64,000 nt of DNA from an uncultured Ulvibacter sp. (lineage in GTDB: Bacteria > Bacteroidota > Bacteroidia > Flavobacteriales > Flavobacteriaceae), in NCBI GenBank assembly GCA_943789105.1, contig CALSSW010000005.1:290001-354000 (forward strand), in the 5' to 3' direction. How positions within the stretch are numbered: the first letter of the stretch is position 1; every line of letters starts with the position of its first letter. Under the pieces are notes generated by a model. The model was not told the origin of the DNA. It was given only the letters and a program-made list of their open reading frames with translations, and searched no databases. The translations under genes were made by a program, and so were the position numbers. Below are positions 1,652-8,575 of the stretch, piece after piece.

Positions 1652-4018
1652 TTAAAATTTAAAATTATACGTAATGGCAGGAATAACTCCAAAAATAGAA
1701 AGTCTTACCGCCTCATTATTTCCAGTATCTTTATTTTCTCTAAATGATACAGAGGCAGCATTTTTTCTATTATACACATTGTATACGCTAAAAACAATCT
1801 CATCACTCCAGCGTTTTTTACTTTTATGTTTTAAATTCCAGGTAGCTGAGATATCTAGATGATGAAAACTCTCTAATCTACTAACATTTCTTGCCTCATA
1901 TACAGGAACTACTTGGCCTTGGTACTCATATTGTCCTAGAGGGAATGTGGCTGGACGTCCAGTTTGGAAAATAAAATTAGCACCTAAAAACCATTTTTCG
2001 CTCAGTTTGTATTGTGCCGTTAGGGAGAAATCATGGGTTCTGTCCCAGGCTGTGCTGTACCACTTCCCATTGTTAATGCCTGTTTCTAAAGCTGTTCTTC
2101 CGGGTGTTCTTTGTTCAGATTTTGAAAGTGTGTATGCTAACCAACCTTGTAAGTTTCCTTTGGTTTTTCTCAGTAGGAATTCTAAACCATATGCTCTGGT
2201 GTGTCCACTTAAAACAACCTGTTCTATGGCATCATTAGCAATTAAATCTGCATCATCAACATAATCAATTCGGTTTTTTACCTCTTTGTAATAGGCTTCA
2301 GCCTCTAGAGAGAAGTTTTCAAAAGCCTTAAAATAACCTACAGCAAATTGATCTCCCAATTGCGGTTTTATAAATTGTCCACTTGGGGCATATATATCAA
2401 AAGGGGTAGGAGAGGATGTGTTGCTTATTAAATGGATGTATTGTGCTGTTCTGTTATAACTAGCTTTAATAGAAGAACTCTCTGATACTTGATAGGCTGC
2501 AGATACTCTTGGCTCAAAGTTTAAAAAGGACTTTATTGAAGCGTCTCTTGCAATAGCAATTGTGTCTATAGGAGTTGCTTTTTGATAGACATCTAGATTC
2601 TGGTTGTAAATAATCGGATTATCGTTTTCATACACATTAATAGATGCTTGGCCTAATCTTGTGAAGTTTGATATACGAAGTCCTGCCTGAATGTTTAATT
2701 TTTCTGAAGCTTTTATAGTTCCATCAATATACCCTGCGTTTTCAAAGGCATATTTGTCTGTAAGTTTTCTGTAGTTTATTCCGCTATTATCTGTGGTTGG
2801 AAATACTTCTCCAGGGTTGAATTTATAATAAATACTATTAAACCCAAATTGTAATTTTACGGCGTCTGAAACATAACTTGTAAAATCATATTTTAAGTTG
2901 AAGTTCCTAATACCAGTATCAAATTGGAACTCCGCGAACTTGAGTTCTAGACCATAATAGTAATCTGAATAAATTAAAGAGAGGTTGCTAAACAGTCTGT
3001 CGCTGAATAAATGATTCCAACGTAGGTTTAATGTTGTATTTCCAAAGGTGTTTCCGAAAACATCTCCAAGGTCAAAAGTGTCTCTACCAAAATAACCAGA
3101 TAAAAATATTTTATTTTGACCATCTATATCATAACTTAGTTTGGTATTTAAATCATAGAAATACGCAATATTTTCATTTCCTGCGTCTACCAAAGGTATA
3201 AACAAGTGTGCATAGCTACTTCTGCCACCAACTAGAAACGACCCCTTATCTTTTACAATAGGTCCCTCAAGGAGCAGTCTGCTCGCCAATAAGCCAATAC
3301 CACCAGTGGCTCCAAATGCTCTCTTATCACCATCTTTTTGGTATATATCTAACACGGATGCAATGCGTCCTCCATATCTAGCAGGAATACCTCCTTTGTA
3401 AAGGGTTAAATCTTTAATAGCATCTGGATTAAACACAGAGAAAAAACCAAACAAGTGTGAAGAGTTATAGAGTGTTGCCTCATCCAGCAAGACTAGGTTT
3501 TGATCTGCGGCCCCGCCTCTTACATTAAAACCACTCGCTCCCTCACCTGCATTAGTTACTCCAGGGAGAAGAGTTATGGCTTTGAGGACATCTGCCTCTC
3601 CCAGTACCACCGGTATTCTTTTTATTATGTTTGCTTTGAGTGTGGTTACACTCATTTGGGGTGTTTTTATGTTTGTTTTTTCAACGTCTGTTTCTAGTAC
3701 AACCACATCTAGCATTTCTGTGGTTTGAGATAACGAAACATTGTTGGTCACAGCTGCGTTGAGTTCTATGGTTTGCGAGTAGCTTTCAAAGCCTAAATTT
3801 GTATAGGTAACCTGGTGGATTCCTTTGGGTAGTGTGATGGAGTAAAAACCATATTGATTTGTAACAACTCCGGTTTGCAGGGAAGGGATTAGTACATTAA
3901 CACCTATCATGGTTTCGCCAGATTGGGCTTCAGAAATTGTACCACTTAGGGTAAATTTTTCTTGCGCAAACATTGCAAAACTTGCAAGAATAAGTACCAG
4001 AGTAAGTTTGTTTTTCAA
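1652..4018 (-). CDS. TonB-dependent receptor with carboxypeptidase-like N-terminal domain
   Basis: A 788-residue outer-membrane active transporter. In order: signal peptide (about 1-18, ending MFAQ), a carboxypeptidase-regulatory-like beta domain (about 22-105, with NQYGFYSITLPKG), a plug domain (about 115-230, with GFNVRGGAADQNLVLLDEA), and a C-terminal barrel ending in phenylalanine (TYNFKF). The start is a TTG at 4018; no in-frame ATG precedes the signal peptide. It heads a two-gene unit with the DUF4249 lipoprotein. The substrate cannot be read from sequence; neighbours give no sugar-degrading or siderophore genes. Confidence 0.9.
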   Translation of the reverse strand: MKNKLTLVLILASFAMFAQEKFTLSGTISEAQSGETMIGVNVLIPSLQTGVVTNQYGFYSITLPKGIHQVTYTNLGFESYSQTIELNAAVTNNVSLSQTTEMLDVVVLETDVEKTNIKTPQMSVTTLKANIIKRIPVVLGEADVLKAITLLPGVTNAGEGASGFNVRGGAADQNLVLLDEATLYNSSHLFGFFSVFNPDAIKDLTLYKGGIPARYGGRIASVLDIYQKDGDKRAFGATGGIGLLASRLLLEGPIVKDKGSFLVGGRSSYAHLFIPLVDAGNENIAYFYDLNTKLSYDIDGQNKIFLSGYFGRDTFDLGDVFGNTFGNTTLNLRWNHLFSDRLFSNLSLIYSDYYYGLELKFAEFQFDTGIRNFNLKYDFTSYVSDAVKLQFGFNSIYYKFNPGEVFPTTDNSGINYRKLTDKYAFENAGYIDGTIKASEKLNIQAGLRISNFTRLGQASINVYENDNPIIYNQNLDVYQKATPIDTIAIARDASIKSFLNFEPRVSAAYQVSESSSIKASYNRTAQYIHLISNTSSPTPFDIYAPSGQFIKPQLGDQFAVGYFKAFENFSLEAEAYYKEVKNRIDYVDDADLIANDAIEQVVLSGHTRAYGLEFLLRKTKGNLQGWLAYTLSKSEQRTPGRTALETGINNGKWYSTAWDRTHDFSLTAQYKLSEKWFLGANFIFQTGRPATFPLGQYEYQGQVVPVYEARNVSRLESFHHLDISATWNLKHKSKKRWSDEIVFSVYNVYNRKNAASVSFRENKDTGNNEAVRLSIFGVIPAITYNFKF

Positions 4019-4040
4019 GGGTCTAATTTTAAGTAAAAAT

Positions 4041-4071
4041 AAAGCCTTTAGTTACAGTTACTAAAGGCTTT
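4041..4071 (-). terminator. Rho-independent terminator of icd
   Basis: A perfect 12-bp inverted repeat (AAAGCCTTTAGT / ACTAAAGGCTTT) with a 7-base loop lies just after the icd stop. Read on the minus strand it is followed by TTTATTTTTA. It separates icd from the TonB-receptor unit, which has only about 20 further bases for its own promoter. Confidence 0.8.
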
Positions 4072-4084
4072 AACGAAAGTTTAA

Positions 4085-6313
<2,229 letters not shown>

Positions 6314-6335
6314 CTAATTCTTTTTTTTTGGATTG

Positions 6336-6343
6336 CAAATATA
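6336..6343 (-). promoter_or_regulatory. -7 promoter box (TATATTTG) of icd
   Basis: Matches the Bacteroidota TAnnTTTG box, 22 bases upstream of the icd ATG. No convincing -33 TTG element is visible. Confidence 0.5.
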
Positions 6344-6486
6344 CAAATTTGAGCAGCCTTTTAAAAGTGTAAGTGGCTTATTATAGCTGCAACTCTATGA
6401 GTTACTAATGTGCTATTTTTTAATTGAAATTTTTAATAATATGATAATTACAAGTCTTATTTTTAAGGATATGGTAATAAAATAAA

Positions 6487-6524
6487 AAAGCCATATCATT
6501 GTATTGCTACATTGGTATGGCTTT
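6487..6524 (-). terminator. Terminator-like hairpin with no annotated gene upstream
   Basis: AAAGCCATACCA pairs with TGATATGGCTTT (one internal mismatch). On the minus strand it is followed by TTTTTTATTTTATT. The rplS transcript already has its own terminator at 6852-6878, so this one would end a separate transcript. Confidence 0.6.
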
Positions 6525-6669
6525 ACGTAAAATAATTCATTTCATATAGACTCTTAAGTCTTTGATACAGTTTATTTTACAAAAAGTGTTTTGTTTTTTT
6601 AAGTATCAATACATGTTGTATTCTATGACACTAGCAAAACAAATACACATACTACTTTTTGATCGTATC

Positions 6670-6744
6670 TCAACCCTTTTTGAAGGGAGTCCTCAATAAA
6701 ATAAAAGCAGCAATACTAAGAACGTGTTTTTTAGGTATTAGCAT
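6670..6744 (-). CDS. Possible 24-residue hydrophobic peptide
   Basis: The short frame reads MLIPKKHVLSIAAFILLRTP followed by FKKG and a TGA stop. It has a lysine pair, a hydrophobic core of about nine residues, and a basic tail, as in small membrane peptides and some type I toxins. Its ATG is in the loop of the hairpin at the 5' end of the candidate RNA, about 13 nt from the predicted start. It has no recognised family and may be chance in AT-rich DNA. Confidence 0.28.
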   Translation of the reverse strand: MLIPKKHVLSIAAFILLRTPFKKG

Positions 6745-6760
6745 ACGCTAATTACCCTAT

Positions 6761-6768
6761 CAAATATA
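6761..6768 (-). promoter_or_regulatory. -7 promoter box (TATATTTG) of the candidate small RNA
   Basis: Perfect TAnnTTTG match on the minus strand inside the icd-rplS gap, placed 4-5 bases before the first paired base of the 5' hairpin. No -33 TTG is evident. Confidence 0.45.
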
Positions 6769-6851
6769 CCACAGAATAAACCACTAAAAGTAATTTAAGT
6801 GTTTTGTTTTCAACCTGTTATGAACATGGTTTATTAACTTTTGTTCATAAA

Positions 6852-6878
6852 AAAAGCGACTCATCATGAGTCGCTTTT
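6852..6878 (-). terminator. Rho-independent terminator of rplS
   Basis: Perfect inverted repeat AAAAGCGACTC / GAGTCGCTTTT with loop ATCAT. On the minus strand it runs into seven consecutive T. It lies 20 bases past the rplS stop. Confidence 0.9.
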
Positions 6879-6898
6879 CTAATATGTATGATTGAAGA

Positions 6899-7249
6899 CT
6901 AGTATCTTTTCTCTTTAATTCTTGCTTTTTTACCAGTAAGACCTCTAAAGTAGTATATACGTTTTCTACGTACAGCACCTTTTTTATTGATCTCAACTTT
7001 CTGCAGAGCTGGCATGTTTACTGGGAAGATTCTTTCTACTCCAACAGTACCTGACATTTTTCTTATTGTAAAAGTTTTTAAAAGTCCTGTACCCTTTACT
7101 TGGATAACCACACCTCTAAAAAACTGCGTTCTTGTTTTTTCACCTTCACGAATTTCATAGAATACTGTAATTGTATCACCAGCTGAAAATTCTGGGAAGT
7201 CTTTTTTTGTAACAAATTCGTCTTGAACAAATTTTATTAACGATTCCAT
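6899..7249 (-). CDS. rplS: 50S ribosomal protein L19
   Basis: Large-subunit ribosomal protein at the 30S-50S interface. The 116-residue length and sequence are those of bacterial L19: FSAGDTITVFYEI near residue 21, the FFRGVVI segment near 43, TIRKMSGTVGVERIFPVN near 62, and a basic tail KGAVRRKRIYYFRGLTGKKA. It is a stand-alone gene with its own promoter, a roughly 65-nt leader that can fold, and a strong terminator; trmD, often beside rplS, is not here. Confidence 0.97.
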   Translation of the reverse strand: MESLIKFVQDEFVTKKDFPEFSAGDTITVFYEIREGEKTRTQFFRGVVIQVKGTGLLKTFTIRKMSGTVGVERIFPVNMPALQKVEINKKGAVRRKRIYYFRGLTGKKARIKEKRY

Positions 7250-7314
7250 AGTATTAATTTAAATATTAAACTAAAGCAACATACACGTATTTCGCCAGAG
7301 GTTAAATTAATTGG
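7250..7314 (-). promoter_or_regulatory. Putative structured leader of rplS mRNA
   Basis: From the transcript start predicted by the -7 box (about 7313) to the ATG, the leader begins and ends with complementary arms. ATTAATTTAA at 7311-7302 can pair with TTAAATTAAT at 7262-7253, enclosing 39 bases that include an ATAC/GTAT hairpin. The closing arm ends 3 bases before the start codon, a position from which pairing could gate translation. The arms are only A and T, so chance is possible. Confidence 0.35.
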
Positions 7315-7317
7315 CTG

Positions 7318-7325
7318 CAAAAATA
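7318..7325 (-). promoter_or_regulatory. -7 promoter box (TATTTTTG) of rplS
   Basis: TAnnTTTG match on the minus strand, 68 bases upstream of the rplS ATG. The predicted transcript start falls 2-3 bases before the first arm of the leader stem. Confidence 0.55.
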
Positions 7326-7518
7326 CCTAAATTTTGTAATGTGACAATTATTTAGGCCACTATTTTGATTGAATTTTGAAAATTTCAGTAATAAACCTAC
7401 TTAGTCTCTGCAATCCAACTATTAATTTCATCTTCATTAATGCCAAGGGTATGAAGTCAGACTCTAAAACTTGATTTTGAAGTTCTCTTTTATCACAACG
7501 AGCACCTATTTCTTTCTT

Positions 7519-7526
7519 TATCTTTG
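7519..7526 (+). promoter_or_regulatory. -7 promoter box (TATCTTTG) of the KAS III gene
   Basis: Perfect TAnnTTTG match 41 bases upstream of the ATG at 7568. Confidence 0.55.
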
Positions 7527-7567
7527 CTTTTTAGTATCTTACAAACACGTTTAAAAATCAAATAATT

Positions 7568-8575
7568 ATGTATAGTTCGAAAATTAGTGGCGTGGGTCAT
7601 TACGTGCCAGAAAATGTTGTTACCAATGACGATCTTTCTAAAGTGATGGACACCAATGATACATGGATACAAGAGAGAACGGGTATACAAGAGCGAAGGC
7701 ACATAAAAAAAGGTGATGGAAATAACACATCTATTATGGGCGCAAAAGCTTCTAAAATTGCTATGCAGCGCGCTGGAGTTAGTACCAAAGATATAGACTT
7801 AATTATATTTGCAACCCTTAGTCCAGACATGTATTTTCCTGGTGGAGGTGTGCAATTACAAGAATTACTAGAAATGGATACAGTACCTGCATTGGACGTT
7901 CGTAACCAGTGCAGTGGTTTTGTGTATTCTTTGTCTGTTGCAGATCAGTTCATTAAAACAGGAATGTATAAAAATGTGCTAGTAGTTGGTAGTGAAAACC
8001 ATAGTGGTGGTCTAGATTTTACTTCTAGAGGGCGAAGTGTATCTGTTATTTTTGGAGATGGAGCAGGGGCGGTGGTTGTGTCAAGAAATCATAGAAAAAC
8101 TGGAGGCATTTTGTCCACTCATTTGCATAGTGAAGGAAAGCACAAGGATGAACTCGCACTTCAAGGACCCAGTACCGGACATTGGGTGCCAGAACTAATA
8201 GAAAACAACCCGCAAGATGATATTCCTTATTTCCCTTATATGAATGGCCCGTTTGTTTTTAAACATGCGGTTGTTCGTTTCAGTGAAGTTATACAAGAAG
8301 GGTTATTAGCCAATAACATTAATAGCGAAGATATTGACATGTTGATACCACACCAGGCTAATTTGAGGATATCACAATTCATACAAAAAAAGATGCAATT
8401 GCCAGATCATAAAGTGTTTAATAACATACAGAAATACGGAAATACTACGGCTGCTTCTATTCCTATTGCCTTGTCTGAAGCTTGGGAGCAAGGAAAAATC
8501 AAAGAGGGTGACCTTGTTGTTTTGGCTGCATTTGGTAGTGGTTTTACTTGGGGAAGTGCTATACTAAAGTGGTAG
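7568..8575 (+). CDS. 3-oxoacyl-ACP synthase III (FabH-like condensing enzyme)
   Basis: Condensing enzyme predicted to join an acyl-CoA starter with malonyl-ACP. The 335-residue protein has the KAS III triad: Cys115 in VRNQCSGFVY, His262 in IPHQANLRI and Asn292 in GNTTAASIP, plus the FGDGAGAVVV loop near 162. It is not beside acpP, plsX or rpmF, the usual context of the primary fabH, so it may be a second paralogue with another starter or a special lipid or secondary-metabolite role. The family is certain; the exact substrate is not. Confidence 0.88.
   Translation: MYSSKISGVGHYVPENVVTNDDLSKVMDTNDTWIQERTGIQERRHIKKGDGNNTSIMGAKASKIAMQRAGVSTKDIDLIIFATLSPDMYFPGGGVQLQELLEMDTVPALDVRNQCSGFVYSLSVADQFIKTGMYKNVLVVGSENHSGGLDFTSRGRSVSVIFGDGAGAVVVSRNHRKTGGILSTHLHSEGKHKDELALQGPSTGHWVPELIENNPQDDIPYFPYMNGPFVFKHAVVRFSEVIQEGLLANNINSEDIDMLIPHQANLRISQFIQKKMQLPDHKVFNNIQKYGNTTAASIPIALSEAWEQGKIKEGDLVVLAAFGSGFTWGSAILKW

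Follow-up and report, generated by a model that had tools for sequence, protein, structure and literature searches.

A candidate structural RNA gene between rplS and icd: a probable shortened member of an RNA family of Flavobacteriaceae

What is encoded between the genes of ribosomal protein L19 (rplS) and of isocitrate dehydrogenase (icd) in an uncultured Ulvibacter sp.? The question arises from a stretch of 64,000 nt (GCA_943789105.1, contig CALSSW010000005.1, positions 290,001-354,000, forward strand), hereafter called the window. An orphan transcription unit had been predicted there on the minus strand, which might produce a small RNA, a small membrane peptide or a type I toxin. In the present analysis, the reading considered likely as a whole is that of a standalone, trans-acting structural RNA gene, a shortened member of a wider family, for which a mechanism is proposed.

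Signals, folding and strand of the unit

The features of the region are collected in Table 1. Direct reading bears out a perfect TATATTTG box and the presence of further inverted repeats within the unit. A first hairpin was expected where the transcript should begin. It is indeed found there (GGTA-A-TTAGC/GTAT/GCTAATACC), but it is imperfect because one A is bulged, and no other helix of the unit pairs so poorly in the six-genome alignment described below. The terminator-like hairpin announced with its T run also holds, with arms 88% complementary and a T-rich stretch after them, and so does the terminator attributed to rplS itself, seen as a terminator-like hairpin at 6847-6883. A simple scanner run with its own thresholds reported neither a minus-strand sigma-70-type promoter at the TATATTTG box of the unit nor a terminator within 6000-7600. 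TTG is absent from the 28 nt upstream of the window's -7 box, which is thus without a -33 TTG.

Table 1. Features of the rplS-icd region, in window coordinates
Feature	Position	Strand	Basis or remark
L19-Flavobacteria leader (RF03130) ahead of rplS	7277-7304	-	Rfam match
rplS, ribosomal protein L19, preceding gene	6899-7249	-	PF01245, 137.3 bits
-7 promoter box TATATTTG, perfect	6761-6768	-	read directly
Putative RNA gene, ~270 nt	6480-6755	-	start taken from the -7 box, end from the terminator
H1, 5' hairpin, variable sequence	6735-6755	-	83.3% of cells paired, 3/7 pairs with compensatory change
ACGTTCTT box (H2)	6718-6725	-	elsewhere part of a hairpin with loop AACGTT; here degenerate (ACACGTTC)
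H3, long hairpin, internal loop with two UUGAG elements	6650-6712	-	window-clade helices 2-4
H4, long hairpin (GUGU.UUUGUUUU / AAAACAAA.ACAC), CAUAGA loop	6586-6648	-	window-clade helices 5-7
P1 domain, closing stem GUAAAAUAA/UUAUUUUAC and inner hairpins	6526-6581	-	covariance models R1, R2
Terminator-like hairpin, conserved stem AAAGCCAU.../...AUGGCUUU	6487-6524	-	inverted repeat, 17-nt arms
Second -7 box TATATTTG, before icd	6336-6343	-	read directly
icd, monomeric isocitrate dehydrogenase, 742 aa, next gene	4085-6313	-	PF03971, 1280 bits

Folding of 283 nt of the minus strand gave -70.9 kcal/mol, against -48.6 +/- 4.5 for shuffled sequences (z -4.9, none of 200 shuffles as low), in line with the proposal of a minus-strand unit that is structured, ends in a terminator and has a promoter box of its own. 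As the plus strand comes close to this value (z -4.7), folding energy does not choose the strand, whereas wobble pairs do. Read on the rplS-icd strand, G-U cells outnumber A-C cells 43:5 in the window clade defined below, and 27:1 and 140:22 in two other alignments. This excess fixes the transcribed strand as that of rplS and icd.

Relatives and range of the RNA

All 11 genomes examined of the window's genus, the window's included, gave a blastn match to the unit, of very uneven strength. Ten of these matches sit between rplS and icd; the eleventh (L018) is a 25-base match in a short stretch carrying neither gene. At another locus of the genus (L017), a 237-codon frame separates the RNA from icd. 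The whole unit is alignable in six genomes, again including the window's, which are called here the window clade (alignment A3).

Two covariance models were used, R1, built from the long form described below, and R2, built solely from genera other than the window's. R2 matches all ten of the genus loci given to it and finds the window at 6575-6487 (minus strand, E 1.3e-8). In the window's genome, it places the unit first (4.2e-7), followed by the unit's own reverse strand (8.8e-4) and by a next place at E 3.66. R1 finds the window at 6580-6485 (minus strand, E 1.2e-5). Judged from such matches, the window unit belongs to a family of structured RNAs in Flavobacteriaceae, of which it is a shortened form.

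The layout of this family was drawn from the DNA downstream of rplS in the best 80 named contigs of a longer list and in 150 family genomes, the first listed of the 196 (out of 199) in which rplS was found. A common arrangement recurs: a -7 box, then, some 175-250 nt past rplS, a ACGTTCTT box, followed by the structured body and a hairpin AAGCC...GGCTTT. The ACGTTCTT box and the hairpin occur together in 114 loci, some of them duplicates, and 107 loci (106 distinct) remain once duplicates are removed. Duplicates between the two collections were dropped, eight for the mixed-clade and long-form alignments and nine for the promoter, neighbour and loop counts, the identical pair L081/L157 being retained in all deduplicated sets. 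Counts based on the ACGTTCTT box are conditional on that box, and a strict motif misses members that the covariance model finds.

Among the 127 box-bearing loci, TAnnTT[TA]G is found 20-125 nt upstream of ACGTTCTT in 94 (base-shuffled mean 24.1) and TTG 16-23 nt before the -7 box in 77 (base-shuffled mean 3.1), the shuffles preserving base composition only. AACGTT is present in 105 of the same loci, and the 7-nt loop holds the palindrome AACGUU. The H2 stem has six base pairs in 71 of them; in 34, no loop-adjacent pair is formed. In the clade of L087, L095, L148, L161 and L232, a second AACGU element stands directly ahead of P1, and it could pair intramolecularly with the AACGUU loop of H2.

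In 16 of the 107 loci, box and hairpin lie no more than 232 nt apart; the distance is 280-345 nt in 22, 368-410 nt in 64 and longer in 5. The RNA length, counted from 7 nt past the -7 box up to where the stem ends in those loci that have a -7 box, has a median of 296, 424, 499 and 611 nt in the four classes (14, 5, 58 and 5 loci, respectively). The commonest form (64 of the 107 loci) is about 500 nt long, and the window clade has the shortest one, about 270 nt. By eye, the window form appears to keep H3 with its UUGAG internal loop, H4 and the terminator, with a reduced P1 and a decayed H2. H3 was likened, also by eye, to the equivalent hairpin of ten near relatives picked for UUGAG, and in the P1 domain of the window, the 3' domain known from other genera is seen in reduced form.

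Several loci downstream of rplS show repetition. In L052 and L123, the middle of the RNA seems, by eye, to be internally repeated, and in L055 the ACGTTCTT box occurs twice. From these three cases, some long forms may have grown by duplication of modules. In L089, tandem R2 matches at 3705-3828 and 3983-4093 point to a possible duplication of the RNA or of its 3' domain.

With R1, the RNA was found in 122 of 199 genomes (111 of the 169 of good quality) sampled at nearly one per genus from this large bacterial family; most of the genera examined gave a match, and the RNA mostly lies between the same two housekeeping genes. It must be kept in mind that 42 of the 122 positive genomes were training members of R1, and the same 42 are included in the 110 of 150 stretches downstream of rplS that R1 matches. 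On the best named contigs, R1 matches 56 of 80, 15 of which had trained it; R2, applied to 56 of the 80, adds 5 and brings the two models together to 61. Named cultured genera such as Maribacter, Aequorivita and Formosa are represented. Outside such samples the matches become rare. An order sample rich in one large genus gave 19 of 246, 18 of them within the family, and a class sample gave 3 of 247, two within the family and the third (G624; L320) probably due to chance. In the stretches fetched for this match and for one family hit (G067; L313), neither the box nor rplS nor icd is found. From the case of L313, a few of the 122 family matches are probably chance as well. Conversely, searches spanning more than 40 genomes apply stricter filters and lose weak matches. 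G001, a member of the window's genus, was missed by the R1 family search, and R2 finds locus L017 there with E 2.9e-12. On these data, the RNA appears almost confined to Flavobacteriaceae and usually stands beside rplS or icd.

Absence is also found within the family. In one genus, g126, probably Flavobacterium in view of its many species, all ten genomes examined were without the box at the rplS site and without an R1 match, and in six of them icd follows rplS at 236-303 nt. The Flavobacteriaceae can therefore do without the RNA. An origin from phages or plasmids was considered and set aside, as the long member L083 found no match in either. Viral contigs gave one exact match to the stem pattern, in a 12.5-kb stretch devoid of rplS and icd, which was taken as chance.

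Covariation and coding potential

In the window clade (A3), 96.3% of the 518 cells of the consensus structure are paired. Compensatory change is seen in 8 of 87 pairs, versus 2.5 after shuffling and 0-3 in slid versions. For further pair types, 113 of 500 shuffles reach the count, so that there is no excess over chance. The 12 outer pairs of H4 are preserved yet invariant across the six rows.

For the 3' domain of the long form, alignment A1 comprises 57 of 64 sequences, namely those with a recognisable TTGA start (62 by a looser rule). Left to itself, RNAalifold gives the terminator and a single hairpin here, and P1 was put in manually ahead of the count. Of the cells, 94.6% are paired; 18 of 34 pairs show compensatory change, in 120 cells, where shuffling gives a mean of 35.0 and sliding gives 19-37. 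The terminator stem is strongly conserved, 10 of its 17 pairs being invariant across 56 distinct long-form rows. Alignment A2 holds nine of 12 near relatives found by pattern, L030, L045 and L078 being excluded as longer or duplicate. Its branched 3' domain, of four helices and the terminator, is 98.3% paired, and 8 of 39 pairs show compensatory change, in 15 cells (3.9 after shuffling, 0-4 when slid); its count of further pair types is reached by 37 of 500 shuffles. The 5' part (H2 and H3) was considered in A4, that is in ten of 14 near relatives selected by eye for UUGAG in H3, L022, L023, L026 and L051 being left aside. It shows 12 compensatory cells in 9 of 22 pairs versus 5.2 after shuffling; slid by one column, the structure still reaches 9 cells, which makes for a weaker control.

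For the full-length long form (64 rows, 63 distinct), RNAalifold gives 20 helices of at least 3 bp, of which 19 have compensatory change. Over its 129 pairs, 835 cells have changed on both sides, compared with a mean of 243 and a maximum of 280 in 50 shuffles, a comparison that favours this structure to some extent, as it was derived from the same rows on which it was scored. A 3-bp helix linking both ends is 78% paired and doubtful. One long relative folded alone gives z -7.45 and a picture much like that of the alignment. A covariation scan of the 64 rows revealed, by eye, no clear run of new neighbouring pairs, 48 of the top 110 column pairs belonging to the structure already drawn; hence no pseudoknot is claimed. 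When clades are mixed, little structure is shared: with 34 rows RNAalifold recovers the terminator alone, and with 22 rows a 5' stem and the 3' domain, H3 and H4 being missed. The clades were therefore aligned separately, and H3 and H4 were likened across them by eye.

These results bear on the idea of a stray terminator or repeat, having no function of its own and kept in a conserved intergenic stretch. Such a view would be in keeping with four distant members of the genus, in which the blastn similarity coincides with the region of the terminator hairpin. Yet compensatory changes are spread all along the unit (A1, A2, A3, A4 and the long form), the promoter box is conserved, and the stem pattern AAAGCCAT..ATGGCTTT occurs at a single place in the window's genome. 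We regard a stray terminator as very improbable.

The original prediction also offered a small membrane-peptide mRNA or a type I toxin unit, and the 24-codon frame on which it relied, encoding a basic-hydrophobic-basic peptide (MLIPKKHVLSIAAFILLRTPFKKG), is present in the window. Among the six genomes of the window clade, the window's included, this frame starts with ATG in two (L001 and L010), the window's genome being one of the two and the frame in L010 being similar to that of the window. It has no ATG and only an inner TTG in L009, and it is broken in the other three, being shifted in L011, deprived of its stop at that place in L012 and interrupted by an in-frame stop in L013. When relatives with the same gene order were compared, as the prediction had asked, the hairpins were found to be conserved and the peptide was not. 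The conserved part of the frame falls largely inside helix H3. Over the 107 loci, the length from box to terminator is evenly spread modulo 3 (36/32/39), and the ATG frames of the sense strand, with a median of 24 aa, do not exceed in length those of the antisense strand (28 aa). A peptide or toxin mRNA was rejected because the frame is not conserved and the length modulo 3 is unconstrained; we give this reading hardly any credence. The region 6755-6480 of the minus strand is very probably a structured noncoding RNA gene.

Neighbouring genes, proposed mode of action and known systems

The proximity of icd raises the possibility of regulation in cis. In such a model, transcription would start at the -7 box, the RNA would act as a sensor and its terminator would decide on read-through into icd. 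The RNA does end in a terminator-like hairpin, and in 111 of the 124 RNA-bearing loci icd follows it on the same strand, in 101 without any intervening frame above 70 aa. In the other 13, icd is absent from the fetched stretch, one such stretch being only 745 nt long. Twenty R1 places situated away from rplS or having unclear neighbours were fetched. In eight, the RNA stands 108-214 nt upstream of icd and no rplS is present in the stretch, which again would suit a leader. In seven, rplS and icd flank the RNA; in L315, rplS is 1.8 kb upstream and icd 94 nt downstream; L319 has icd in a stretch that starts near a contig end, L318 has rplS without icd, and the remaining two, L313 and L320, carry neither gene.

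Other observations speak against such a leader. A -7 box of its own precedes icd in the window and is found within 150 nt of icd in 76 of the 111 loci, a count made without shuffled control. A frame above 70 aa intervenes in 10 of the 111. Ten loci where the RNA is beside rplS and icd is not close were followed further. Five have icd 1.2-6.6 kb on, behind other genes, four have no icd within 15 kb (L326, L329 and L330, which are R1 matches, and L322, which has box and hairpin and no R1 match), and one ran off its contig. In G050 and G133 (L323 and L324), two long frames on the opposite strand directly follow the RNA, ahead of icd. These frames, of about 1250 and 440 codons, are found in two genera and perhaps represent one shared insertion. 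Moreover, no alternative partner of the terminator stem was seen, and some 500 nt is large for a regulatory switch. Thus, the RNA does not behave as an obligate leader of icd, since at some loci other genes, also of the opposite strand, intervene or icd is missing within 15 kb, and a leader or attenuator of icd is in our opinion improbable. The most plausible view is that rplS-RNA-icd is the ancestral order, that it has been broken on one side or the other, and that the RNA is strictly tied to neither gene. A standalone gene is thereby favoured rather than a leader, though some remaining link with icd could persist.

We are fairly confident that the RNA is standalone and acts in trans. It would be transcribed on its own from its own promoter box and fold into a series of hairpins followed by a closed 3' domain. 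It would act in trans as a structural RNA, either by binding a protein or by self-assembling, and would not be an mRNA, an antisense guide or a switch of icd. The mechanism that appears most likely, though it is put forward tentatively, combines a platform for protein binding with kissing of AACGUU loops. A protein would be bound on a platform formed by the folded body together with the unusually invariant terminator hairpin. The H2 loop AACGUU would, in most box-bearing loci, kiss either another copy of the RNA or a different part of its own molecule, and the window clade would have lost part of this docking arrangement. As the most conserved parts are a paired stem and the palindromic AACGUU loop, docking is suggested more than pairing in the manner of a guide.

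It may nonetheless be imagined that the RNA regulates mRNAs by base pairing, through exposed loops such as AACGUU and, in the long form, UACAUU. The apical loops are conserved, and passages of PMC9723704 describe an effect of the structured RNA Rfp18 of Flavobacterium psychrophilum on protease mRNAs. On the other hand, no conserved single-stranded seed was noticed on viewing the alignments, the H2 loop is short and palindromic, and conservation peaks in a stretch that is paired as a stem. In length, the long form also far exceeds the median of 176 nt that the same passages give for independent transcripts (PMC9723704). A base-pairing regulator is thus held to be rather unlikely. A bolder version of the proposed structural role, which is at least conceivable although we would not count on it, is that of a new class of large, self-assembling flavobacterial RNA, with copies joined by the AACGUU loop and a protein held by the invariant terminator hairpin and the 3' junction domain. 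If this were true, the family would represent an RNA machine, absent by loss from some genera and, in the small-genome lineage to which the window belongs, trimmed to about 270 nt.

The original prediction recognised no known RNA family. Rfam 15, scanned at its curated gathering scores, returned no family over the unit in the window or in 16 relatives. A permissive scan of window positions 6330-6900 gave only scores far below gathering, and when two relatives, one long and one near, were scanned permissively, no match appeared up to E 1. No description of the RNA was found in the open-access library searched. The RNA is filed as a new family of large structured bacterial RNAs of unknown function, Rfp18 having been compared by description only. 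To our knowledge, there is only a small number of large structured RNAs in bacteria for which no function is known, and unexpected biology has come with each new class. Because the RNA is present in cultured genera and exists in long, middle and reduced forms, deletion and probing experiments should be straightforward.

Several known RNAs of these bacteria invite comparison. The L19-Flavobacteria leader (RF03130) and Flavo-1 (RF01705) share the neighbourhood of the unit. However, both stand before rplS and neither overlaps the unit; Flavo-1 was met in one of the 16 loci scanned (L083, 54.1 bits, positions 2798-2866, just upstream of rplS). Like the present RNA, 6S-Flavo (RF01685) is a standalone structured RNA of the same bacteria. 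It gives no match at the unit, and the genome's own copy lies at C4:244120-244228 (97.4 bits). Rfp18 is, in the passages of PMC9723704 devoted to it, a structured small RNA conserved in flavobacteria. In this description it resembles the present RNA. At the rplS site, the present RNA was met in none of the ten genomes examined of g126, a genus that is only probably Flavobacterium.

The closest likeness in character is with OLE, GOLLD and ROOL, classes that are presumably contained in Rfam and to which homology was sought in the Rfam scans of 16 relatives and in the permissive scans of two, without a match. As with these classes, the flavobacterial RNA is long, made of many helices, noncoding and of largely unknown function. 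In PMC12286853, OLE, GOLLD and ROOL form homo-oligomers, the contacts of ROOL including kissing loops. The ROOL studied there measures 659 nt; in the present family, the commonest form has about 500 nt and the window form about 270 nt. Unlike those classes, the flavobacterial RNA is almost confined to Flavobacteriaceae and usually sits beside rplS or icd; any likeness in oligomer formation would lie in the palindromic loop, which is degenerate in the window. The resemblance in self-assembly is therefore offered as an analogy and carries no claim of membership. In the long form, where the likeness to such ornate RNAs was followed to this depth, the window form being short, the RNA does show many covarying helices (19 of 20) and no coding signal, as would be expected of a large structural RNA.
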